This document shows positions 1-10,045 of a stretch of 10,045 nt of DNA, piece by piece. The notes below the pieces were generated by a model. The model saw only the letters and a list, made by a program, of their open reading frames with translations, searched no databases and was not told the DNA's origin. Source of the DNA: Burkholderiales bacterium (lineage in GTDB: Bacteria > Pseudomonadota > Gammaproteobacteria > Burkholderiales > Burkholderiaceae); the NCBI GenBank assembly GCA_903643055.1, contig CAHJWV010000006.1:1-10045 (forward strand), read 5' to 3'. The position numbers were made by a program, and so were the translations under genes. Positions within the stretch are counted from its first letter, which is position 1. The number at the start of each line of letters is the position of its first letter.

Positions 1-112
1 CGGCCGGCCCGCGCTCGATGCGCAGTTCGAGCGCCATGGCGGCGCGGCGCGTGCGGCGCAAGGCGCGGAACTGCTGGCGCATTTGCGTGCGGCGGCACGG
101 CGTGCGGCATGA
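1..112 (+). CDS. C-terminal end of an unidentified protein (partial, 5' end outside window)
   Basis: An open frame enters from the left edge (codons from base 2) and ends at TGA 110-112, giving 36 residues. Third codon positions are mostly G or C, as in the real genes here. The peptide is a charged, Ala/Arg-rich helical tail (...AELLAHLRAAARRAA), typical of the end of a cytosolic enzyme, but there is no motif to name a family. The gene lies upstream of the TolC operon on the same strand with a gap of about 139 bases, so it may or may not belong to the same functional cluster. The other two plus-strand frames are less gene-like over this stretch. Confidence 0.5.
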   Translation, partial: GRPALDAQFERHGGAARAAQGAELLAHLRAAARRAA

Positions 113-251
113 GTTGCGCTGCAGGTAGGCCAGGGCCTGCGGCGGCTGCACCGTTCGCCCTCCAACGATCGGCGCAGGCGCTCAGTCATCACGATGAGCT
201 TTAACGAACACACCGAGATGTCCATCGATCACCCGTCAGAGGAGAGATGAT

Positions 252-1787
252 TTGAATACCAACGCTTCGACTCGTTCCCGCCAGCGTGATGCGGCGCCTC
301 GCCGCCTTTTGCTGGCGTCGCTGGTAGCTTTGGGGCTGGCCGGCTGCGCCGTGCAGCCGCAAAGCCTGAGCCTCGCCGAGCGCGAGGCCACATGGCGCAG
401 CGACCGCGAAGCGATGTTCACGCAGCAAGAGCCGGTGCAAGGCGCGGTGACGCTGGATGAAGCGATGGCGCGGGCCATCAAATACAACCTCGATCACCGG
501 CTGAAGCTGATGGAAGAGGCGGTGGCCCAACGCCAACTCGACCTGTCGAACACCGAACTGCTGCCCAAGCTGGTGGCGTCGGCGGGCTACACCGGGCGCG
601 ATAACGAGCTGGCTTCGTCATCGCGCGATGTCGCCACGCGCACGCAGTCGCTGGTGCCGTCGACATCGACCGACAGCAACCGCCGCACCGCCGACCTCGC
701 GCTGTCATGGAATGTGCTGGACTTCGGCGTCAGCTACTACGGCGCACGGCAGCAGGCCGACCGCTGGCTGGTCGCGCAAGAGCGGCGCCGCAAGGTGCTG
801 CACATGCTGATGCAGCAGACGCGGCAGGCGTATTGGCAAGCGGTGGGCGCGCAGCAGCTCGAAGAGAAGATCGGCCCGGTGATCGAGCTGGCGCGCAAGG
901 CGCTGGCCGATGCGCGCAAGGTCGAGAATGAAAAGCTGCGCCAGCCTTTGGAGTCATTGAACTACCAGCGCCAGTTGCTCGACATCGTGCGCCAGCTCGA
1001 AGGCCTGCAGGATGAGCTGGCGCAGGCCAAGCCCAAGCTCGCGTCGGTGATGAACCTGTCGCCCGGCCAGCGCTTCAGCGTGGTCGTGCCGGCCGACACG
1101 GCGCTGCCGCCGATCGGCATCAGCACCGAGCAGATGGAACAGGCGGCGATGCTGAACCGGCCGGAGCTGATCGAGGCGCAATACAACGAGCGCATCGGCC
1201 TGCTCGAAACGCGCAAGGCGCTGGCGCGCCTCTTCCCCGGCATCGAGCTGAGCCTGGGCGGGCATTACGACAGCAACAGCTATCTCGTCAGCAACGAATG
1301 GAGCGAGGTCGGCCTGCGCGTCAGCTGGAACCTGTTCAACCTGTTGAATGCCCGCCAGATCCGCGGGCTGGCGCAGCTGCAGCTCGATGTCGCGAAGCAG
1401 CAGCGGCTCGCGCTGAGCATGGCGGTGCTGACGCAGGTGCATGTGGCGCACCTCGAATACCTCGGCCGTGCCCGCCAATACGAACGCACGCAGGAGCTGA
1501 ATACCGTCGAGCAGCGCATCTTGACGCAGACGCGCAATGCCGCGACCGCCAATGCCCAAGGCAAGCTCGACGAGGTGCGCGCCGCCGCCTCGGCGATGAT
1601 GGCCGAGCTGCGGCTGTATCAAAACTATGGCGCGGTGCAGGGCGCCTACGGCCAGATGATCGCAACGTTGGGCCTCGACCCGCTGCCCGACTCGGTGCCC
1701 TCGCATGACCTGAAGACCTTGGGCAACGCGGTGCATGCGTCGGAGATCGGCTGGCTCAAGACCGTCAATCCGCAGGGCGGGACATGA
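252..1787 (+). CDS. TolC-family outer-membrane efflux/secretion channel, lipoprotein
   Basis: A 511-residue protein of the TolC/OEP family, which forms trimeric channels across the outer membrane and periplasm for tripartite pumps and type I secretion. A lipoprotein signal is visible: Arg-rich start, hydrophobic stretch, then lipobox LAGC with Cys32 as the predicted lipidated residue. Two OEP repeats follow. The first contains the strand-turn motif LSWNVLDFGVSYYGARQQAD and long coiled-coil helices (about 150-270). The second has the matching LRVSWNLFNLLNARQIRGLA motif and helices (about 365-480). The start is TTG at 252, chosen because GAGGAG at about 238-244 is well spaced and the signal peptide follows directly. 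An ATG at 247 in another frame gives only ATG-ATT-TGA. The stop overlaps the next start (ATGA), so it leads an operon with two HlyD adaptors and an M50 protein. No convincing -35/-10 pair was found in 113-251. The family is secure; the substrate is unknown. Confidence 0.93.
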   Translation: MNTNASTRSRQRDAAPRRLLLASLVALGLAGCAVQPQSLSLAEREATWRSDREAMFTQQEPVQGAVTLDEAMARAIKYNLDHRLKLMEEAVAQRQLDLSNTELLPKLVASAGYTGRDNELASSSRDVATRTQSLVPSTSTDSNRRTADLALSWNVLDFGVSYYGARQQADRWLVAQERRRKVLHMLMQQTRQAYWQAVGAQQLEEKIGPVIELARKALADARKVENEKLRQPLESLNYQRQLLDIVRQLEGLQDELAQAKPKLASVMNLSPGQRFSVVVPADTALPPIGISTEQMEQAAMLNRPELIEAQYNERIGLLETRKALARLFPGIELSLGGHYDSNSYLVSNEWSEVGLRVSWNLFNLLNARQIRGLAQLQLDVAKQQRLALSMAVLTQVHVAHLEYLGRARQYERTQELNTVEQRILTQTRNAATANAQGKLDEVRAAASAMMAELRLYQNYGAVQGAYGQMIATLGLDPLPDSVPSHDLKTLGNAVHASEIGWLKTVNPQGGT

Positions 1788-2650
1788 GAGCAGCGAGGCA
1801 CGATGTCGACCTCACGTCGACGGCCTGGCGGATGAATCGGCCTCTGTGGAGCGCATGGGCCATGTTGATAACGCTTCAAATGAGCGGTACGGTATTGGCG
1901 CAAAAAAGCATGCTGGTGCCGGTGGTTCAGGCTTCGGGCCAGTCGTCGACCCAATCATCCGCCTCCAGCCTGGCGATCGACCGCGAGGGCCGCATCCGCA
2001 CGCAATTGGGCTCGCGCAATTCGGTGACCTTGTCGGCCGAGCTGGCCGCGCGCATCTCCAGCCTGCCACTGCGCGATGGCGATTCGTTTCGCACCGGCCA
2101 GGCGCTGGTCGGCTTTGATTGCGCGCTCTACCAAAGCCAGCTGCACAAGGCCGAAGCGGCGACCGAAGCGGCGACCGCGATGGTCCGCTCGAACCAGCGC
2201 CTGCTGGAGCTGAACTCGATCGGTGCTTATGAGCTGGAGCAGGCGCAGGCGCGATTGAAGGAGGCGCAGGCCGAGGTGGCGAGTTCACGCATCCTGGTCA
2301 GCCGCTGCACGATTGCTGCGCCGTTCACCGGCCGGGTGGCGAAGCGCCATGTCGCGGCCCATCAATACGTGACGCCGGGCAATGCCTTGCTCGACATCAT
2401 CGAGACCAGCCAGCTGGAGCTGCAGATGATCGTGCCGTCGAAATGGCTGGCGTGGCTGAAGCCGGGTGCCGTGCTGACGGTGCAGGTCGATGAATTGGGC
2501 AAGAGCTATCCGGCCAAGGTGCAGCGTCTGGGCGCGCAGATCGACCCGGTGAGCCAGTCGATCGCGGTGGTCGGCGTGATCGATGGCAACCAGCCGGGCC
2601 TGCTCGCCGGCATGAGCGGCTGGGCGGTGTTTGCCGAGCCGAGGCCCTGA
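1784..2650 (+). CDS. Periplasmic adaptor (membrane fusion protein) of HlyD/RND type, secreted
   Basis: A 288-residue adaptor that would bridge an inner-membrane component to the TolC-type channel encoded just upstream. A signal peptide is visible (residues about 17-40, ending VLA before QKS), so the protein is periplasmic rather than membrane-anchored. Module order is typical: first lipoyl half with the AARISSLPLRDGDSFRTGQ pattern, a short alpha-hairpin (about residues 120-168), second lipoyl half (IAAPFTGRVAKRHVAAHQYV), then a beta-barrel/membrane-proximal part (SQLELQMIVPSKWLAWLKPG onward). The ATG at 1784 overlaps the tolC-like stop as ATGA, suggesting translational coupling. An internal ATG at 1832 gives a more usual short n-region for the signal peptide and could be the true start. 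The hairpin contains a 12-bp tandem duplication. It is shorter than most RND adaptors (about 350-400 residues), consistent with a simplified hairpin. No RND pump lies beside it. Confidence 0.9.
   Translation: MRAARHDVDLTSTAWRMNRPLWSAWAMLITLQMSGTVLAQKSMLVPVVQASGQSSTQSSASSLAIDREGRIRTQLGSRNSVTLSAELAARISSLPLRDGDSFRTGQALVGFDCALYQSQLHKAEAATEAATAMVRSNQRLLELNSIGAYELEQAQARLKEAQAEVASSRILVSRCTIAAPFTGRVAKRHVAAHQYVTPGNALLDIIETSQLELQMIVPSKWLAWLKPGAVLTVQVDELGKSYPAKVQRLGAQIDPVSQSIAVVGVIDGNQPGLLAGMSGWAVFAEPRP
2153..2176. repeat. Two perfect tandem copies of a 12-bp unit inside the adaptor gene
   Basis: GAAGCGGCGACC occurs twice head to tail and encodes EAATEAAT in the alpha-hairpin of the adaptor. The unit is a multiple of three, so the frame is kept. 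It lengthens the helix by four residues and is probably a slippage duplication tolerated in a coiled-coil helix. Confidence 0.85.
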
Positions 2651-2655
2651 CCGCG

Positions 2656-4038
2656 ATGGTGCGCGAACCCCTTCCTCTGAACGAACCGCTGAATGGGCCA
2701 CCGATCGAGCCCCAGGGCGACGCGATGTTGCCACTGGTGGCCTTGCTGCAGCTGGGCCGCCGCGCGCGCGAAGCACCCTCGCCCGAGGTGCTGGGCTTTG
2801 TGATCGTCAACGAGAGCTTGCAGTTGCTGGCCTATCGGCAGGCCGCGCTGTGGACCGAGCTCGGCATCGGCCAGGTGGCTGCGCTGTCGGGCCTGCCGCA
2901 GGTCGAGCCCACCGCGCCTTATGTGCAATGGCTTTCGGCCTTGTGCCGGCATCTGCGGCGTGTGCAGCCGCAGGCTGGTGGTGTGGATGCGGCGGCTTTG
3001 CCCGCTGCCTTGCGCGAGGAATGGGCGCATTGGCTGCCGCCGCAGGCGCTGTGGCTGCCGTTGGGGCGCGAAGGGGAAGCGGCGGTCGGCGGCCTGCTGC
3101 TCGCGCGTGACGAGGCGGGGTCCGACCATGAGCTGGCGCTGCTGAAAGAGCTGGGCCATGTCTACGGCCATGCGCTGGCCGGCTTCGTGCCACGCCGGCC
3201 CTGGCATCAACAGTTGCTCGGCTGGCTGCGCAGCGCGAAGGCCCGGCGCCGGCTCGCGCTGGCGGCTTTGCTGCTGTGCGTGCTGCCGGTGCGGCTGACG
3301 GTGCTGGCGCCGGCCGAGGTGTCGCCGGTCGAGCCGTTCATGGTGCGCGCGCCGCTCGATGGCGTGATCGACCGTTTCGATGTGCGGCCGAACGAGGCCG
3401 TGCAGGCCGGCACGCCGCTGTTCAATCTCGATACGACGATGCTGCGCGCTCGCATGGAGTTAGCTCGGCGCGCGGTCGACACCGCGCAAGAGGAATACCG
3501 CCAGTCGGCCCAGCTGGCCGTCACCAGCGAAAAGAGCCGCGCCGAGACGGCGCTGCGCCGCGGCAAGCTGCAGGAAAAGGCGGTCGAGATGGACTACACC
3601 GCGGCGCAGTTCGAGCGCGTGCAGGTCAAGGCCGACCGCAGCGGCATCGCGGTGTTCGCCGACACCAACGATTGGGTTGGCAAGGCGGTGACGCTGGGCG
3701 AGCGCGTGCTGTTGGTGGCCGACCCGGCGAAGGTGGAACTCACGGCCTGGATGCCCGCAGCCGATCAACTGCCGGTCGCACCCGGCGACACCTTGATGCT
3801 GTACCCGCAAGGCTCACCGCTCAGCGGCTTCGAGGCGCGCATCACCAGCGTGGCTTATCGCGCCGAAGTCACGCGCGAAGGCTATCTGGCTTATCGCTTG
3901 AAGGCGGCCTTCGTGCCCGGCCCGGCGATGCCACGCATTGGCCAGCTCGGCACGGCGCGGCTGAACGGCGGCTGGGCGCCGTTGATCTATGTGGCACTTC
4001 GCCGCCCGCTCGCGGTGGTGCGGCAATGGGTCGGATAA
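2656..4038 (+). CDS. HlyD-family adaptor with GAF-like cytosolic N-terminal domain
   Basis: A 460-residue protein in three parts. Residues about 24-180 resemble a GAF-type sensor fold: an early strand GFVIVNESLQLLAYRQAALW, a later PLGREGEAAVGGLLLARD, and a closing helix LLKELGHVYGHALAG. One transmembrane helix follows at about 199-217, with flanking Arg/Lys (AKARRR) that place the N-terminus in the cytosol. The periplasmic remainder is HlyD-like: first lipoyl half (VRAPLDGVIDRFDVRPNEAV), alpha-hairpin about 262-320, second lipoyl half (VKADRSGIAVFADTNDWVGK), and beta-barrel domain to about 440. The ATG at 2656 lies 5 bases after the previous stop, so the genes are probably coupled; the Shine-Dalgarno is weak and an internal ATG (codon 24) is possible. 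HlyD assignment is firm; the GAF call rests on pattern only. It may sense a cytosolic ligand or dock another protein to the export complex. Confidence 0.9.
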   Translation: MVREPLPLNEPLNGPPIEPQGDAMLPLVALLQLGRRAREAPSPEVLGFVIVNESLQLLAYRQAALWTELGIGQVAALSGLPQVEPTAPYVQWLSALCRHLRRVQPQAGGVDAAALPAALREEWAHWLPPQALWLPLGREGEAAVGGLLLARDEAGSDHELALLKELGHVYGHALAGFVPRRPWHQQLLGWLRSAKARRRLALAALLLCVLPVRLTVLAPAEVSPVEPFMVRAPLDGVIDRFDVRPNEAVQAGTPLFNLDTTMLRARMELARRAVDTAQEEYRQSAQLAVTSEKSRAETALRRGKLQEKAVEMDYTAAQFERVQVKADRSGIAVFADTNDWVGKAVTLGERVLLVADPAKVELTAWMPAADQLPVAPGDTLMLYPQGSPLSGFEARITSVAYRAEVTREGYLAYRLKAAFVPGPAMPRIGQLGTARLNGGWAPLIYVALRRPLAVVRQWVG

Positions 4039-4075
4039 GGGCCTGGTTGAAGGCCGCGGTGTGGGCCGCAAGCTC

Positions 4076-6211
4076 ATGTCGATGACGCAACATCCCTTGC
4101 TGCCGTCGCTGCGCCAAGACCTGGCGCTGCACCCCGGCGCGGCCGCCGCCGATGGCTCGCCGACCTGGACGCTGCACGACCCGGCCAGCAACCGCTTCTA
4201 TGCATTGAGCTGGCCGGCCTTCGAGCTGCTGTCGCGTTGGGCGCTGGGCACGGCCGAGGCGGTGATCGCGGCGGTCAACCGCGAGACCACCTTGCGTGTG
4301 CAGGCTGCCGACCTGGAAGGGCTGCTGCGCATGCTGGTGGGCAGCCACCTGCTGGTGGCTCGCAGTGCGCAAGACACACAGCACTTTGCCGCGCAGGCGC
4401 GGGCGCGACTGCTGACGCCCTCGCAATGGCTGCTGAAGAACTACCTCTTTTTCCGGGTGCCCTTGCTGCGGCCGATGCGTTGGCTGCAGCAGTCCAGCCG
4501 CTGGGTGGACTGGGCGTTTCACCCGGCGTTTTGGGTCGGCATCCTGCTGTTGTCGCTGCTCGGGCTGGTGATGGCTTCGCGCCATTGGGATGAATTCACC
4601 CACACCTTCACTTCGTATGCGAGTTGGGAAGGCGTGCTGGCGATCAGCCTCGCGTTGAGCGTTGCCAAGGTCTTGCACGAGCTCGGGCATGCCTTCACGG
4701 CAACGCGGTATGGCTGCCGCGTGCCGACGATGGGCATCGCCTTTCTGGTGATGTGGCCGGTGCTCTACACCGACACCAACGAAGCCTGGAAACTGACTTC
4801 GCGCCGGCAGCGCCTGGCCATCGGCGCGGCTGGCATGCTGAGCGAGCTGGCCCTGGCGGCCGTGGCGCTGACTGCGTGGAGCCTGATGCCCGACACGCCG
4901 GCCTTCGGCCCGCTGCGTTCGGGGGCGTTTTTGCTTGCCACCACCACCTGGCTGCTGACCTTGGCGATCAACGCCAGCCCGTTCATGCGCTTCGATGGCT
5001 ACTTCCTGTTGTCGGATGCACTGAACCTGCCGAACTTGCATGAGCGCGCGTTTGCACAAGGCCGCTGGTGGCTGCGCGAGCGCCTGTTCGGCTGGAGCGA
5101 CGCGCCGCCCGAGCACTTCTCGCCGGGCCGGCGCCGCTTTCTGATCGGCTTTGCCTTGGCGACCTGGGTTTACCGGCTGGTGCTGTTCTTCGGCATCGCG
5201 CTGGTCGTCTATCACCTGTTCTTCAAGGCGCTCGGCTTGCTGCTGATGGCGGTGGAACTGGGCTGGTTCATTGCCCGGCCTGCGTGGCGCGAGGCGCGGG
5301 TGTGGTGGGCGCGCAGGGGCGATGGCGCCTGGAAGGGGGCTGCGGGGCGCACGCTGTTCATCGCGGGCGCGGTGCTGGCCCTGCTGTGCTGGCCCTGGCC
5401 CGCCACGGTGCGTGCGCCGGCGGTGTGGGGCGCGCAGCAGTCGCAGGCCGTGTATGTGCCATATGCCGGGCGCATCGAGACCGAATTGCCGCGTGCCGGG
5501 CAAAGGGTGCGCGCGGGTGATGAGTTAGCTCGGCTGGCTTCGCCCGATCTGGCTTACCGGCTGGCCGTGGCTCAGGCCCGCGAGCAGCAATTGCAATGGC
5601 AATTGACGCAGCAGCCGTTTGATGGGGAGCTGATGTCGGCCGGCCCTGCGCTGAGAAAGCATTGGGAATCGGCGGTCGAAGAGGTCGCGGGCCTGGCGCT
5701 GGAGCAGCAGCGGCTGGTCTTGCGCGCGCCGTTCGATGGCACGGTGGTCGATGTGGCCGACGACGCAGGCATCGGCAGCTGGCTGCCGGCCGGGGAGCGG
5801 CTGCTGCAGGTCGTCGGGCCCCACGGCACCAAGGCCGATGCCTTCATCGACGAAGCTTCGATGCAGCGCCTGGATGCCCAAGGCATGACGGCTCGATTCG
5901 TGCCACAGGCGCTGGATGCTGCGCGCGTGAACTGCAATGTGATCCGACTCGATGCGGTGCCGCTTGCGCAACTTGATCAGCCGAGCGTCGCCAGCCCCTA
6001 TGGCGGTGAGATCGCCGCCAAGCTGGGCGCCGATCACCGCCTGGTGCCGATGGAATCGACCTTCCGCGTCAGGCTCGAAGGCTGCGACCTGACCCAGGCG
6101 CCGCGCAGCGAAATTCCCGGTACCGCGTTGCTGCAAGGCGCGAGCCGCTCGTGGGCGATGCAGGGCGCTCGTTGGCTGGCGAACCTGGCGCGGCGGGAGA
6201 TGGCGTGGTGA
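4076..6211 (+). CDS. M50 (site-2 protease type) membrane protein with PqqD/RRE-like N-terminus and HlyD-like C-terminus
   Basis: A 711-residue multidomain inner-membrane protein. Residues about 14-95 look like a PqqD-like winged-helix/RRE domain (WTLHDPASNRFYALSWPAFE, then GLLRMLVGSHLL). The membrane part (about 150-442, roughly eight hydrophobic segments) carries the zinc motif HELGH at 201-205 and the second-ligand motif FDGYFLLSD with Asp307, as in M50 'putative peptide zinc metalloproteases'; the catalytic residues look intact. From about 458 a HlyD-type module follows: lipoyl half (YVPYAGRIETELPRAGQRV), short hairpin, second half (LRAPFDGTVVDVADDAGIG), then beta-barrel. The frame is open from 3989, but that start overlaps the previous gene by 50 bases. 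ATG 4076 leaves a 37-base gap and begins just before the folded domain, though its Shine-Dalgarno is weak; ATG 4082 is an alternative. It is last in the operon. It may cleave a substrate, or be the membrane core of the exporter; neither is shown. Confidence 0.9.
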   Translation: MSMTQHPLLPSLRQDLALHPGAAAADGSPTWTLHDPASNRFYALSWPAFELLSRWALGTAEAVIAAVNRETTLRVQAADLEGLLRMLVGSHLLVARSAQDTQHFAAQARARLLTPSQWLLKNYLFFRVPLLRPMRWLQQSSRWVDWAFHPAFWVGILLLSLLGLVMASRHWDEFTHTFTSYASWEGVLAISLALSVAKVLHELGHAFTATRYGCRVPTMGIAFLVMWPVLYTDTNEAWKLTSRRQRLAIGAAGMLSELALAAVALTAWSLMPDTPAFGPLRSGAFLLATTTWLLTLAINASPFMRFDGYFLLSDALNLPNLHERAFAQGRWWLRERLFGWSDAPPEHFSPGRRRFLIGFALATWVYRLVLFFGIALVVYHLFFKALGLLLMAVELGWFIARPAWREARVWWARRGDGAWKGAAGRTLFIAGAVLALLCWPWPATVRAPAVWGAQQSQAVYVPYAGRIETELPRAGQRVRAGDELARLASPDLAYRLAVAQAREQQLQWQLTQQPFDGELMSAGPALRKHWESAVEEVAGLALEQQRLVLRAPFDGTVVDVADDAGIGSWLPAGERLLQVVGPHGTKADAFIDEASMQRLDAQGMTARFVPQALDAARVNCNVIRLDAVPLAQLDQPSVASPYGGEIAAKLGADHRLVPMESTFRVRLEGCDLTQAPRSEIPGTALLQGASRSWAMQGARWLANLARREMAW

Positions 6212-6345
6212 AGCGCGATCGCCCTCTGTGGCGCCATGGCCCGGGCTACCATGCAGTTCGTTGCCGGGGCGCGAAGAAAGGACCCCGCCTTCGCATCTGC
6301 TGCGTGACAAGCGGCTGAAGAGGCCGCTCGAAGAGCGACAGCGCC
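6212..6345. other. Convergent intergenic region with two mutually exclusive small hairpins
   Basis: The plus-strand operon and a minus-strand broken gene end head to head here. AGCGGC 6310-6315 pairs with GCCGCT 6323-6328 (7-base loop), and CGCTC 6325-6329 pairs with GAGCG 6333-6337 (3-base loop); the two overlap, so only one can form at a time. Neither is followed by a T-run on either strand, so a bidirectional intrinsic terminator is possible but weakly supported. Confidence 0.3.
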
Positions 6346-6897
6346 TTACTTCTTCTCGGAAGTGGAGGCCAGCGCTTCAACCGGCGCTGCGGCGGTGGCA
6401 GCCGCGTCTTCCGGGCGAGCCTTGGCGCCACGTGCCAGCCAGCCGGCGACGTCTTTGCCCAGCGTCACGGTGATCCGCTCGAAGATCGAGCAGCTGCCCT
6501 TGAAGCCCCCCAACGCACCGCCCCCTGAAGCCCTGTTCAACACCGTCGAGCTGGCCGTGCCATCGCTCTTTTCAGGTCGACCCGGATGCTCATGGACTTG
6601 CCGCCGCTCCAGGCGCCGCCGCCCAAACCGTGGGCCGACAGGATGGTGATTTGAACGAGGTTGCCGCCCTTCGCCTGGTCGGGCGTGGCGATCGATTGAA
6701 CGCTGTCACGGCGCCCGATCTCGGCCAAGGCGTAGTTCCCCAGCAGCATGTCGACGCTGCATTCTTTCTTTACCGCCGCCGGAAGGGCGCGGCAGGATCA
6801 ATTGGACCGGCAGCTGAAGGAAGTAGGTATCGGCGGCGAATGCGAATGCCGGAGCGAACAAGGCCACAACAATGGGGGCGAGGCAGGAAGGTTTCAT
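6346..6897 (-). pseudogene. Secreted protein of unknown function, broken by two frameshifts
   Basis: Three overlapping minus-strand frames join into one protein-like sequence of about 183 residues. The first part, from ATG at 6897, is a clean signal peptide (MKPSCLAPIVVALFAPAFAFA, cleavage before ADTYF). The middle part (VKKECSVDMLLGNYALAEIG ... GGGAWSGGKSMSIRVDLK) and the last part (GTASSTVLNRASGGGAL ... KDVAGWLARGAKA) read naturally only in their own frames. The first shift lies within about 6770-6797, with GGG 6785-6787 as a candidate extra base. The second fits a missing base in TTTT 6569-6572. The two shifts cancel in length, and the last part is back in the first frame. With them corrected, the product would be a small exported protein with cysteines near KKEC and GSCSI and a low-complexity Ala-rich tail. 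I recognise no family. Real decay and sequencing error both remain possible; a frameshift programmed at the AAAAG site is less likely, since it would not explain the first break. Confidence 0.6.
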
Positions 6898-7235
6898 GGA
6901 TGCAATTGCCGTATTGAAGGTGAGGCGGGCAGGGGCGATGCCCGAATGAAGAACAGACCTTGGGTGGTTCAATGAATCCGTTGGATGGGCGTGTTAGCCG
7001 CAGGCGCTGTCGCCAAGCAAGGAACGCAACGCATGTCGATCAGAGCGATCGCAGGTCGAGCCCGTTCAGCGCGCAGCGCGGATTGTGACGCGGGCTGGCT
7101 GCTTGTTCAGTGGACGCGAGGCGAAAAATCCGTCAGCAAAGGCGGCGGGCTTTTCGTGCTTCGGGCGTGGGCCCTCGCGCTATCGTTCGTGCATCGAAGC
7201 CGTTTCCATTTTGATCACCCGATCGGTACCAGCGC
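6898..7235. other. Intergenic region without a supported gene
   Basis: These 338 bases separate the stop of the glutaredoxin-like gene from the start of the broken secreted-protein gene, both on the minus strand. No frame here reads as a convincing protein. The visible structure is small: CGGGCA 6926-6931 pairs with TGCCCG 6939-6944 around a 7-base loop, about 30 bases upstream of the broken gene's ATG. I could not pick out a clear promoter or terminator. No repeat or RNA gene was recognised. Confidence 0.5.
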
Positions 7236-7778
7236 CTATTTGCGGTCGGTCAACAGCGCGTCATAGGCCGGGGGCGAGAAGCCCGAGACGCTTCGGCCGT
7301 TAGAGAACAGCAGTGGCACGCCGTGCGAGCCACCGGCGCGCGCATAGGCGAGGGCACCTTCCTTCGTGTCGATGTCGAATTCGCGATAAGCGATCTGCTT
7401 GTTGGCCAGATAAGACTTGGCCTTCTTGCAGTAGCCACACCACGCCGCAGAGAACAGCACCGTCTCTCGCGGCGGCGGGGCCGATAAGCGGGCGTCGGCT
7501 GACTTTTTCAGCTGCTCGATGTAGGCCAGCGTTTCGGCCGACAGCGGGCTGGCCGGCGCGCTGGTGAAGCTCAAGGTCTGGGCGTCGCGCGCCTGCAATG
7601 GCGGGCGGTCGCTGTAGACGGTTTTGCCATCGGGGCCGGTCGACTTGTAGAGCGTGGTCGAAGTCGGGCTGTCGGCGGCAAAGGAGCCGACGGCCATGGT
7701 CAGCATCCAGAGCAGCGGGATCGTGGCCCGCCAGGGCTTGGTGATGAGTCTTGTGAAGACATCTCGGCGGTCGCGCAT
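7236..7778 (-). CDS. Exported DUF4124 plus glutaredoxin-like thiol-disulfide protein
   Basis: A 180-residue protein with an Arg-rich start, a hydrophobic segment at about 18-33 and a likely signal-peptidase site near SFA/ADS, so it should work in the periplasm. Residues about 40-75 match the DUF4124 pattern (LYKSTGPDGKTVYSDRPP). Residues about 105-178 form a glutaredoxin/thioredoxin-like domain with the redox motif W113-CGYC (Cys114, Cys117) and the cis-proline loop GVP (Pro155). This pairing of domains is known in betaproteobacterial secreted proteins. The likely role is thiol-disulfide exchange on envelope proteins; the substrate is unknown. ATG 7778 was chosen because GAAGG sits 8 bases upstream; a TTG at 7793 would overlap that site and the previous stop. 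It starts 11 bases after the stop of the small cysteine-containing secreted protein upstream, so the two are probably co-transcribed. Confidence 0.88.
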   Translation of the reverse strand: MRDRRDVFTRLITKPWRATIPLLWMLTMAVGSFAADSPTSTTLYKSTGPDGKTVYSDRPPLQARDAQTLSFTSAPASPLSAETLAYIEQLKKSADARLSAPPPRETVLFSAAWCGYCKKAKSYLANKQIAYREFDIDTKEGALAYARAGGSHGVPLLFSNGRSVSGFSPPAYDALLTDRK

Positions 7779-7789
7779 TGCAGCGGCCT

Positions 7790-8218
7790 TCAATGGGGCT
7801 GTGCTTCCATCGACAGAACGCGTGCGCCGTCTTCACTGAGATAGCACGGGTAGACGCGATCGCCGGTGTAGCCGCCCGTGCTGTTCTTGGTATTGATGAC
7901 GAGATTGAACCGCTGAGCCACGACGGATTTGCCCGCGTACTGAATCACTTCGGTGCCCGATCGCTCGACGGCCCTCACACGCGTGCTTTCCGGATCGGGG
8001 AAGCCCAGGCGGCCGATGCCTTCGGTGATGCAGACTTCTTTGCCTCGGCTGACTGGCGCGGCGTCGGGCGCGGCGCCGGGCGAAATCTTCGATGGTGCCG
8101 CGTTCACATCACAAGGCGTCTGGCTGTATTGGTTGCCACAGCGGTAGAGCTGCTGTGCCGAACACAGGGCTGGAAAGGCCAGCAGGCCGGCAAGCGAGAA
8201 AAGAAGGGCTTTGAGCAT
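7790..8218 (-). CDS. Small secreted protein with four cysteines, DUF4124-like N-terminus
   Basis: A 142-residue protein starting at ATG 8218, chosen because a signal peptide begins there at once (MLKALLFSLAGLLAF, cleavage near CSA/QQ). The frame runs open further upstream to 8308, but that extension is polar, Pro/Ala-rich and would bury the signal. After cleavage four cysteines remain (27, 36, 63, 125). The mature start LYRCGNQYSQTPC resembles the short DUF4124-type motif with an added cysteine pair. The rest (EVCITEGIGRLGFPDPESTR; FNLVINTKNSTGGYTGDRVY) matches nothing I can name. It is followed after 11 bases by an exported glutaredoxin-like gene, suggesting that its disulfides could be that protein's target. 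The Shine-Dalgarno is weak. Function unknown. Confidence 0.78.
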   Translation of the reverse strand: MLKALLFSLAGLLAFPALCSAQQLYRCGNQYSQTPCDVNAAPSKISPGAAPDAAPVSRGKEVCITEGIGRLGFPDPESTRVRAVERSGTEVIQYAGKSVVAQRFNLVINTKNSTGGYTGDRVYPCYLSEDGARVLSMEAQPH

Positions 8219-8545
8219 GGCAAGAGATCGGTCGATGAATCGGTGGCGGCCCGCTGCGGGAAGGGAAGTGCGGCCGGAAGCGGCAGGTGCAGCCGTGGAC
8301 GGCGTCATGAAAATCCGGTCGATCGTCAGGTTAGATGTGCGCGTCCGGCGGTGCGCATTCTCTCTTCAGCCGAAGCAAACCGCGAGTCCATTCGATGCGG
8401 CAAAGCGACAGCCTGAAAACTAACCGGACATTTGATCGTTAATCGTGAGGATGACGATCCGGCATGGATCAACGGGCGACGGTGTTCACTCCGTTGCCGC
8501 GAGCGGGTGAGCCCGAATGATGCTTCGTCGCTCGCCATAGCTTGC
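8219..8545. other. Intergenic region between the frameshifted glpM-like gene and the secreted-protein gene
   Basis: About 327 bases with no convincing gene, although the shifted frame of the glpM-like gene runs into it as far as 8469. It should hold the promoter of the two-gene unit that starts at 8218, but I found no good -35/-10 pair. GCGAGCG 8499-8505 pairs with CGCTCGC 8529-8535 (7-bp stem, 23-base loop) just beyond the expected glpM stop. It lacks a U-run, so it is at best a weak terminator. Confidence 0.45.
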
Positions 8546-8894
8546 TCAACCCGCGGCGGGGTAGACCTTGAACCAAACCATTAGAAGAACAGCCGCACCC
8601 TGCCCAGGTCGCGGTGGCCAGCAGCAGCGTAGTGGCCAGCGCAAAGCGGACGCTCAGCCAATAGACGGCGAACAGATAGAGCGCATAGGGAATGAGCGAC
8701 CACAGGCCGAACAGCGCCGTGACGCGCAATGCAGCCACCGAGCGTTCGCTTCCGACGATGTAGTGGGCGATGAGCGCGAAGGTGGGGAACAGCGGAACCA
8801 GGCCAGCGATGAAGAAGCTCTTTGATTTGGACAGGAGCGCGATCACCAGCACGGCCAGTGCGCCCAGGGCGCATTTCAGGATCAATGAAAACAT
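8546..8894 (-). pseudogene. glpM: GlpM-family inner-membrane protein, frameshifted near the 3' end
   Basis: Residues 1-98 match the GlpM family closely: a first membrane helix (KCALGALAVLVIALL), then the signature SKSKSFFIAGLVPLFPTFAL, IAHYIVGSERSV and LFGLWSLIPYALYLFAVYWL. After ...LLLATATWA the frame changes to a Cys/Arg-rich tail that runs to 8469. Skipping one base in CCC 8598-8600 restores the hydrophobic ending AAVLLMVWFKVYPAAG and a stop at 8546-8548, giving about 115 residues, close to the family's usual length. The start is ATG 8894; no strong Shine-Dalgarno is visible. GlpM is a small polytopic protein. In Pseudomonas aeruginosa it lies in the glycerol-metabolism region and has been linked to alginate production; its biochemical role is unclear. 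A protein with a replaced last helix might be unstable. A single-base sequence error is an equally good explanation. Confidence 0.75.
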
Positions 8895-8926
8895 GGAAGG
8901 TCAGGGAGAGTGGCTTGCCACCTGAG

Positions 8927-8954
8927 TGCCCGCTGCCCGCTGCCCGCTGCCCGG
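8927..8954. repeat. Four tandem copies of a 7-bp unit upstream of the glpM-like gene
   Basis: TGCCCGC is repeated three times exactly, and a fourth time with a final G instead of C. The array lies 33 bases upstream of the glpM-like ATG on that gene's 5' side. Being 7 bp long and outside the coding region, changes in copy number would alter promoter or leader spacing, not reading frame. Confidence 0.9.
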
Positions 8955-8994
8955 TGATCGATGGCTCGGCTGATGTCATGTCGCGTGTCGGTTA

Positions 8995-9020
8995 GGCGCA
9001 GCAGAGAGGGTGGCTGCGCC
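8995..9020 (-). terminator. Hairpin downstream of the CsgG-family gene, possible terminator
   Basis: GGCGCAGC 8995-9002 and GCTGCGCC 9013-9020 form a perfect 8-bp GC-rich stem with a 10-base loop. It begins 11 bases past the CsgG-family stop in the direction of transcription. The sequence after it on the minus strand (TAACCGACAC) has no U-run, so intrinsic termination would be weak; it could instead protect the 3' end of the mRNA. Confidence 0.4.
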
Positions 9021-9030
9021 GCGTCATCGC

Positions 9031-9894
9031 TTATTTTTTCGGAGGCAGGCCGCCGTCCACGCCCAAGCGGCCGCCGGTGCCGAGGCCGCCCTTGACGGTT
9101 TGCGCCTTGTAGCTGCGCAGTGACTTGACCATCTGGTTGTAGGAGTCGGCGAATGCCGCGACCACGACCTTGCCTTGCGGCGTGTTGGCATAGCCCCCGC
9201 CGCCGCCGGCCAGGCCGCCGGTGAAGGCCCCGCCGAACATGCCGAAGTCGAAGTTGTTGGCCGTGCCTTCGGAGGCTGAAATCTGCACGCCCGAGCGGTT
9301 GTCGATCAGCAGCAAGGTGGTGGAGGCTTCGTTGCGGCTGATGTTGCCGGCCACCGCACCGAGAAAGCCCAACTTGCCGGTCAGCAAGCCGGCAGAGCCG
9401 CCGCCGGTCTTGCCGGAGAACTGGATCGCCGGGCTCAGCGTGTAGTCGGCCGAGACCATCTGGCCTTTGCCGAAGTTGCTGCCGGCGCGCATCTCGCCGG
9501 TTTTTTCCAGATCGCGCTCACCCATCATGTTATGCAACGCGCGGCCGCGTTCGACGATCACGAAGCAGTTGCTTTGTTGCACCATCAGCCGCAGTACCGG
9601 GATGGTCGAACCGAGCTGATGTTCCCGCAGCTGGTAGTACCAAGGCGCGTTGGTGTCTTCCTGCATCGTCAGCGTACCCAGCGTTTCACTGCATCGCTCG
9701 AGTTGGCTGTTATTGCCCTCGACCGCATTGCCGCTGGCTGAGCCAGACACCGTGCCTTTGTTGCCGCCCAGGCTCGGGGCGGTTGATCCGCAGGCCGCGA
9801 GCGCAATGCAGGCCACGCTGGCGATGGCGCTGCGGTAAATCCAGGCTGGGAGGGTGGTGCGCGGTGAGTTGATCGTGCTTTGATTCGTCTTCAT
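9031..9894 (-). CDS. CsgG/HfaB-family lipoprotein
   Basis: A 287-residue protein with a lipoprotein signal: hydrophobic stretch SAIASVACIALAAC with lipobox LAAC and predicted lipidated Cys35. The core fits the CsgG family: ETLGTLTMQED (70-80), the helix-strand TIPVLRLMVQQSNCFVIVER (97-116), GRALHNMMGERDLEKTGEMR, ADYTLSPAIQFS, and STTLLLIDNRSGVQISASEG. CsgG proteins form outer-membrane pores for curli subunits, but many CsgG-like lipoproteins occur without curli genes. No csgA/B/E/F-like gene is visible here. Unusual features are Gly-rich stretches (about 219-234 and 266-283) and a short KK end. ATG 9894 was chosen because AAAGGGGG lies just upstream; upstream in-frame codons (to 9933) lack such a site and lengthen the signal n-region. 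Its start lies 75 bases after the stop of the LivF-like gene on the same strand. Confidence 0.85.
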   Translation of the reverse strand: MKTNQSTINSPRTTLPAWIYRSAIASVACIALAACGSTAPSLGGNKGTVSGSASGNAVEGNNSQLERCSETLGTLTMQEDTNAPWYYQLREHQLGSTIPVLRLMVQQSNCFVIVERGRALHNMMGERDLEKTGEMRAGSNFGKGQMVSADYTLSPAIQFSGKTGGGSAGLLTGKLGFLGAVAGNISRNEASTTLLLIDNRSGVQISASEGTANNFDFGMFGGAFTGGLAGGGGGYANTPQGKVVVAAFADSYNQMVKSLRSYKAQTVKGGLGTGGRLGVDGGLPPKK

Positions 9895-9943
9895 GGGGCC
9901 CCCTTTGATCGGTGAGAGCATCATGCCCGCCACCGGGAAAAAC

Positions 9944-9949
9944 AGTATA
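9944..9949 (-). promoter_or_regulatory. Possible -10 box for the CsgG-family gene
   Basis: TATACT on the minus strand, in the gap after the LivF-like gene and about 50 bases before the CsgG-family ATG, matches the sigma-70 -10 consensus at five of six bases. No recognisable -35 lies 16-18 bases upstream, where the sequence overlaps the previous gene's stop, so support is weak. Confidence 0.3.
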
Positions 9950-9969
9950 GGTTTGCCCCTGAAGCGCCC

Positions 9970-10045
9970 TTACTCCCCCAGATAAGCGGCACGCACCTTG
10001 GGATCGCGCAGCAGATCTTGAGCGGCACCACTCATCGTGACCTCG
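9970..10045 (-). CDS. C-terminal end of a LivF-like branched-chain amino acid ABC transporter ATPase (partial)
   Basis: Only the last 24 codons and the TAA (9970-9972) are inside the window. The peptide ends GAAQDLLRDPKVRAAYLGE, the usual tail of LivF-type ATP-binding subunits (a DPxVRxAYLG ending). These subunits power the high-affinity uptake of branched-chain amino acids or similar substrates (amides, urea) with LivG, LivH, LivM and a binding protein. The rest of the cluster should lie to the right. UrtE-like urea transporter ATPases share this tail and cannot be excluded from so short a piece. Confidence 0.75.
   Translation of the reverse strand, partial: EVTMSGAAQDLLRDPKVRAAYLGE

Follow-up and report, generated by a model that had tools for sequence, protein, structure and literature searches.

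Of the systems already described, the type I secretion that serves large adhesins (LapA/LapBCE, SiiE) brings together a TolC-type channel, an HlyD-type adaptor and, as substrate, a giant repeat protein that lacks a Sec signal. The recognition elements (RREs) of ribosomally synthesized and post-translationally modified peptides (RiPPs), such as TbiB1, CteB and PqqD, share a fold and read leader peptides, and the daptide protease MpaP and the YydH-type peptide proteases are M50 membrane proteases with an HExxH motif. Likenesses to each of these are found in a stretch of 10,045 nucleotides from a Burkholderiales bacterium (contig CAHJWV010000006.1, positions 1 to 10,045; hereafter the window), in an operon of four overlapping or closely spaced open reading frames (ORFs) that the ORF list and a Pfam scan place on the plus strand at 252–6211. 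The operon encodes a TolC-family channel, two HlyD-type adaptors and an M50 protease fused to an HlyD domain. We think it probable, with moderate confidence, that these four genes are dedicated to exporting a leader-bearing giant protein, encoded just upstream, and displaying it on the surface, and that they work independently of an ATP-binding cassette (ABC) transporter. The linkage of the genes to the giants, the shared leader and tail of the giants, the predicted folds, the pairing of leader class with M50 class and the lack of a regular pump neighbour are what the analysis shows.

The plan of this set resembles type I secretion, and two of its hallmarks, a TolC-type channel and an HlyD-type adaptor, are present, yet as far as tested the defining feature of that family fails, a dedicated ABC transporter being absent from the window and not a regular neighbour. 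The set differs further from type I adhesin secretion in having three adaptors, two of them fused to other domains (RRE-M50 and GAF), and in that the class of the substrate's N-terminal leader follows the class of the M50 protein. In a search of open-licence literature we found no description of the gene set nor of a link between the LEPR-XLL motif considered below and an RRE-M50 set.

The gene upstream of the channel is cut by the start of the contig, and only its last codons remain (Table 1). Their product is recognized by a hidden Markov model (HMM) trained on the C-terminal 60 residues of giant ORFs from 54 relatives, a set from which the window product was absent, at 26.8 bits (E 9.4e-7), the best unrelated of 2763 ORF tails reaching 14.2 bits. 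On the strength of this match we reject the reading that the first 112 nucleotides are the end of an unrelated gene. When compared by eye with the giant of Albitalea locus L025, the closest named relative, 23 of 35 residues are identical. The HMM also matches giants outside its training set (for example at L016, L027, L034, L009 and L010), and a few giants miss it, such as that of Variovorax at 7.3 bits. Type I substrates carry a C-terminal secretion signal; the shared tail of the giants may or may not be one. The giant whose end lies in the window is likely the substrate of the four-gene set. The initial annotation of this stretch had overlooked both this tail and the RRE-like domain described below.

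A scan of bacterial genomes shows the set to be common, with at least 582 relatives or loci, of which 80 loci were kept for neighbourhood work; among sampled genomes, the M50 gene is present in 23 of the 150 from Burkholderiaceae and in 56 of the 369 from Gammaproteobacteria. On named plasmids of Burkholderia anthina, Azospirillum brasilense, Escherichia coli and Variovorax, a giant gene is followed by the same four genes in the same order. The proteins beside the set are a DUF4347 protein of 3302 amino acids (aa) in B. anthina, a DUF4347 protein (798 aa) together with an Ig-like protein (3383 aa) in A. brasilense, a giant of 4457 aa on an E. coli IncF plasmid and one of 16239 aa in Variovorax, and further loci carry a 492-aa ELWxxDGT repeat protein (Magnetospirillum) or, where no recognised TolC gene adjoins, a 1412-aa protein (Phyllobacterium). 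Several other Pfam matches on the B. anthina giant, outside DUF4347, look like low-complexity artefacts. A TolC gene was recognised at 62 loci, 6 of them on plasmids and 56 in genomes, and at 54 of these it adjoins an ORF on the same strand that reaches 350 aa or more; most such ORFs are cut by the end of the locus. Among the eight exceptions, L015, L027 and L034 still match the tail HMM, L007 has an annotated gene of 48.7 kb, at L079 and L084 the leader-bearing protein is found downstream instead, and at L059 and L070 no giant is seen. The gene order is different at L047. The initial annotation had placed similar gene sets near genes for giant repeat adhesins, and both the plasmid and the genome neighbourhoods bear out a link to giant repeat proteins. 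Among 5426 complete E. coli genomes 24 have the M50 gene, 21 of its 25 places being on plasmids; the IncF plasmids at L006 and L091 carry the full set and the 4457-aa giant. In B. anthina (L089, 1824–2438) and A. brasilense (L090, 20374–22240) the DUF4347 giant is immediately preceded by genes annotated as 'tail fiber protein', and the M50 gene of Variovorax has a type II secretion gene cluster directly behind it (L007, 20273–28903).

The N-terminus of the giants consists of a basic stretch followed by xALE(P/Q/S)Rxx(F/Y)D(A/G). An uncharged 12-mer with a mean hydropathy of at least 2.0 occurs in only 5 of 65 leader-bearing N-terminal regions, and therefore most of these giants show no Sec-type signal. 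The nearest curated motif is NCBIfam LEPR-XLL (NF012209), likewise an N-terminal motif on giants; it resembles a second class of leader found here, which carries S-A-D, whereas the class with (F/Y)(D/E), or D class, scores 12.8 bits, below the model cut-off of 17. Which leader a giant carries goes with the M50 protein encoded beside it, when the latter is scored as canonical (at least 700 bits) or divergent (at most 322 bits). Of 38 linked pairs in a first sample, all 34 with a canonical M50 have the (F/Y)(D/E) leader class, and the four with a divergent M50 (182–304 bits) all have S-A-D instead. In a second sample, made up of those linked pairs, read by eye, that the 369 Gammaproteobacteria have outside genome G027, the canonical proteins pair with the D class in 4 of 4 cases and the divergent ones (145–322 bits) with the S/A class in 12 of 13, the S class having been widened (A for S, G for D) after this sample was seen; the lone D-class leader beside a divergent M50 is that of G240, where the M50 match is split. 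Over both samples the figures are 38 of 38 and 16 of 17 (Fisher p 6e-13), and for the 17 pairs of the second sample alone p is 0.002. Against a direct role for this pairing it has to be said that shared ancestry within two clades could yield it without any binding of leader by M50 protein, and thus the pairing supports a functional pair and does not prove contact.

Comparison with relatives makes an ATG at 4076, rather than 3989, the more likely start of the M50 gene; residue numbers below follow the ORF beginning at 3989. The hallmark of M50 (site-2) proteases, an HExxH motif and a distant Asp within membrane segments, is present as judged by Pfam, alignment and hydropathy, and because H230, E231, H234 and D336 are kept in all 21 aligned relatives the protease looks intact. 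Ahead of the protease lies an N-terminal domain whose predicted model has a PqqD-like beta3-alpha3 winged-helix fold, and a Foldseek search with this model returned RRE proteins for all nine top PDB chains, at modest E-values. As a profile the domain reaches a best E of only 0.17 against PDB sequences, and no PqqD match was given by Pfam in any of the 21 family members, so that the modest match to RREs, the readers of RiPP leader peptides, rests on predicted structure. The domain is probably cytosolic, and hydropathy and charge suggest that the C-terminal HlyD part is periplasmic. Setting this protein apart from known RREs, the RRE-like domain is here fused to a membrane protease-adaptor, the presumed client is a giant, up to 16239 aa long, rather than a small peptide, and no modification enzymes are seen. 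Similarly, the NCBIfam models for MpaP- and YydH-type proteases match below their cut-offs (daptide_HExxH at 155.8 bits, cut-off 300), and these proteases differ from the present one, which has an HlyD extension, the RRE-like domain, channel and adaptor partners and a giant client.

In relatives the giants carry DUF4347 behind the leader. Of 40 genomes carrying the M50 gene 37 have this domain, against 0 of 14 controls; the three M50-bearing genomes without it rule out that it is required. The 40 system-bearing genomes contain 51 DUF4347 matches, of which 38, in 34 genomes, lie within 40 kb of the M50 gene. Among the 369 sampled Gammaproteobacteria, DUF4347 was found in 45, and in 34 together with M50 (p 8e-24). 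The predicted fold matches Tce1 (a type VI effector of Pseudomonas aeruginosa), CHAT and caspases, with one dehydrogenase matching at a similar E. Caspase-like peptidases of clan CD have a His after strand 3 and a Cys after strand 4; of 12 aligned DUF4347 domains, all 12 have the Cys and 10 the His. In a profile search of the PDB, Tce1 is fifth (E 0.0088); the top match, to designed TIM barrels over 28 residues, was judged to be chance. From this fold and these residues, DUF4347 may be a candidate caspase-like (clan CD) protease domain, differing from Tce1, CHAT and caspases in its location behind a leader, close to the N-terminal end of a giant protein of surface type. A single Cys is not universal in the giants: of ten complete DUF4347 proteins beside the set eight have one, that at L036 has two and that at L028 three. 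In the Nitrospira loci (L079, 10962–12023; L084, 12363–14807) the leader-bearing protein lies downstream of M50 and its DUF4347 lacks the conserved His.

The leader can also be followed in DUF4347 proteins not linked to the M50 gene. It is present in 6 of 13 such proteins in the first sample and in 5 of 8 fetched in the second, where its class agrees with the M50 of the same genome. For a contrast set, one protein each was taken from 8 genomes out of the 11 sampled that have DUF4347 but no M50 match; the leader is missing from 7 of these 8 and present in one (G429). Of the seven leaderless proteins, four have a signal-like hydrophobic stretch (12-mer of at least 1.9) and three do not. At L161, L162, L165 and L168 signal-like N-termini replace the leader in DUF4347 proteins of genomes without an M50 match.

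From these patterns we infer export, leader binding, cleavage and a direction of transport, which may proceed as follows. The giant would be made with the leader LExRxx(F/Y)D(A/G) in place of a Sec signal, and the RRE domain of the M50-HlyD protein would bind this leader in the cytosol, as RREs bind RiPP leader peptides, with the contact docking the giant at the inner membrane. There the M50-HlyD and GAF-HlyD proteins would form a platform, which together with adaptor 1 and the TolC-type channel would make a conduit across the envelope. Cleavage of the leader might fall to the M50 protease, to the caspase-like DUF4347 domain within the giant itself, or to both, and the shared C-terminal tail may serve secretion or anchoring. 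The initial annotation's idea of the M50 protein as a membrane core, perhaps maturing a substrate and passing it on, would fit the RRE-like domain. The energy might come from the proton motive force, from extracellular folding, or from a motor of the host, be it shared, housekeeping or of another kind. More tentatively, and with rather less confidence than in a dedicated export system as such, we suggest that this is an undescribed type of secretion, ABC-independent, in which an RRE, a domain so far known from peptide natural products, reads the leader of giants, an M50 protease with a fused adaptor is the inner-membrane gate, and two clades of machine match two leader codes. If true, a new secretion route would be added to those known, one in which a RiPP-type leader reader acts on whole proteins and which would account for the possible passage to the surface of some of the largest proteins of bacteria (up to 16239 aa here) when they have neither a Sec signal nor an adjacent ABC pump, and the long-unexplained LEPR motif and DUF4347 would become testable parts, as a leader and a caspase-like protease. 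The leader, the RRE-like domain, the caspase-like domain and the giant tail all go beyond the initial annotation.

That annotation had also stated that the operon encodes no pump or ATPase, and none is recognised in a scan of the eight window proteins. When the flanks of the 80 loci (median about 10 kb per side) were searched with K-12 MsbA, AcrB and EmrB, ABC genes were found at 9 of 80 loci, several being of importer-ATPase length, resistance-nodulation-division (RND) genes at 0 of 80 and major facilitator superfamily (MFS) genes at 1 of 80. No ABC or RND gene consistently adjoins the set, in keeping with its earlier description as pumpless, and the partner that is the hallmark of tripartite efflux (RND, MFS or ABC) is no regular neighbour at the loci. 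A motor could be encoded elsewhere, as the initial annotation had allowed, and the most serious competitor to a dedicated ABC-independent system, which we nevertheless consider rather unlikely, is ordinary type I secretion with a distant ABC transporter, the four genes being channel, adaptors and accessory protease. An LssB-model ABC scores above cut-off in 20 of 40 system-bearing genomes. Of the 23 Burkholderiaceae with the M50 gene, 15 have an ABC of this kind, 3 above cut-off (G010, G177, G179) and 12 with a full-length related protein at 450–620 bits, and its use in trans is possible there. Type I secretion typically deals with giants that lack a Sec signal, which counts on the same side. 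So does a giant bearing the LEPR-XLL motif together with a C-terminal RTX region, described in PMC10868602. Against this, with the caveat that the genomes are assemblies of unstated completeness, no type I ABC was found by the LssB and PrtD models in 8 of the 23 (G006, G022, G044, G103, G108, G117, G135, G155), where the best LssB scores are at most about 357 bits and most of the matches lack the N-terminal part, which the 314-bit match of G108 does cover; PrtD is above cut-off in 0 of the 23. Of the six lowest LssB scorers among the 40, PrtD is above cut-off in three and HlyB in none, and nothing exceeds the LssB, PrtD or HlyB cut-offs in three (G006, G011, G022), the HlyB model having been applied to no more than 6 genomes, including 2 of the 8 negatives. 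Because a type I ABC was not found by these models in part of the genomes, a dedicated one does not seem to be an invariable component of the system, and for proteins of this type the idea of a motor encoded elsewhere is weakened. The scarcity of ABC genes in the flanks points the same way, as do the E. coli plasmids, which bear set and giant with no ABC gene inside the set.

It is also conceivable, and to our minds improbable, that the set governs retention or release of a giant exported by another route, much as LapD and LapG act on LapA, with the GAF domain sensing a signal and proteases cutting the giant. The GAF domain, the two candidate proteases (M50 and DUF4347) and the N-terminal motif on the giant would suit such a role, although a full channel and three adaptors exceed the needs of release, another exporter is missing in some genomes, and the leader occupies the place of a targeting signal, for which the signal-like stretch in four of the seven leaderless proteins of the contrast set stands in. 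Maturation and export of a small RiPP-type, daptide-like peptide, with the giants as incidental neighbours, seems very improbable: the sub-threshold daptide_HExxH match and the predicted RRE fold speak for it, yet the linkage to giants and the pairing of leader and M50 are too consistent, and the scan of the eight window proteins, small ORFs not being screened, showed neither a small precursor peptide nor a modifying enzyme. Hardly credible, finally, is an ordinary efflux set for drugs or metals whose pump has been lost, despite an adaptor 1 that exceeds the RND_mfp cut-off, since RND and MFS genes are all but missing from the flanks, the catalytic residues are intact and the four-gene set is conserved across Proteobacteria and other groups.

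The features of the window assigned to the probable export system are collected in Table 1. All four genes that the initial annotation had described as coupled at 252–6211 were found on the plus strand, the channel and adaptor 1 genes being joined by an ATGA overlap. The channel is a probable lipoprotein from a lipobox (LAGC) read by eye, and adaptor 1 begins with a signal-like hydrophobic segment in the hydropathy plot. The description of adaptor 2 as GAF-anchored holds in so far as 16 of 53 aligned relatives match PF01590 (best 4.3e-7) and one transmembrane segment follows; the window's own N-domain has no Pfam match. A profile of that domain gave only nucleoporin coiled-coil matches in the PDB (E 0.012), judged to be chance.

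Table 1. Coordinates of the giant-gene remnant and the four-gene operon in the window
Feature	Position	Strand	Basis
Last 36 codons and stop of the likely substrate giant, cut by contig start; shared C-terminal tail (GKP-x-L-xx-QF type)	2..112	+	Tail HMM
TolC-family outer-membrane channel	252..1787	+	Pfam OEP 6.2e-27; TTG start
Adaptor 1, HlyD/CusB-type periplasmic adaptor	1784..2650	+	HlyD_3 1.6e-16; RND_mfp 6e-34, above cut-off
Adaptor 2, GAF-like N-domain, transmembrane segment and HlyD domain	2656..4038	+	HlyD_3 1.7e-11; GAF matches of relatives; hydropathy
GAF-like N-domain of adaptor 2	~2683-3255	+	GAF matches in relatives
Single transmembrane segment of adaptor 2	~3262-3300	+	Hydropathy
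M50-HlyD ORF	3989..6211	+	Peptidase_M50 6.1e-9, HlyD_3 2.5e-15 (Pfam)
RRE-M50-HlyD protein, whole gene with inferred start	4076..6211	+	Pfam; alignment of relatives
RRE-like (PqqD-like) N-terminal domain, beta3-alpha3	4097..4360	+	Predicted fold
HELGH zinc-site motif of M50 (site-2-type) protease	4676..4690	+	H230, E231, H234 invariant (21/21)
Third zinc-ligand Asp (FDG motif)	4994..4996	+	D336 invariant (21/21)
HlyD-type C-terminal part of M50 protein	5426..6208	+	HlyD_3 2.5e-15

The rest of the window is on the minus strand and unrelated to the operon. It encodes a glutaredoxin fused to DUF4124 (7239–7793), an unnamed ORF, a GlpM-family membrane protein (8472–8894; PF06942, 1.3e-41) and, also outside the operon, a CsgG-like protein (9034–9933; Pfam CsgG 1.7e-8) with an N-terminal region that by eye is lipobox-like.

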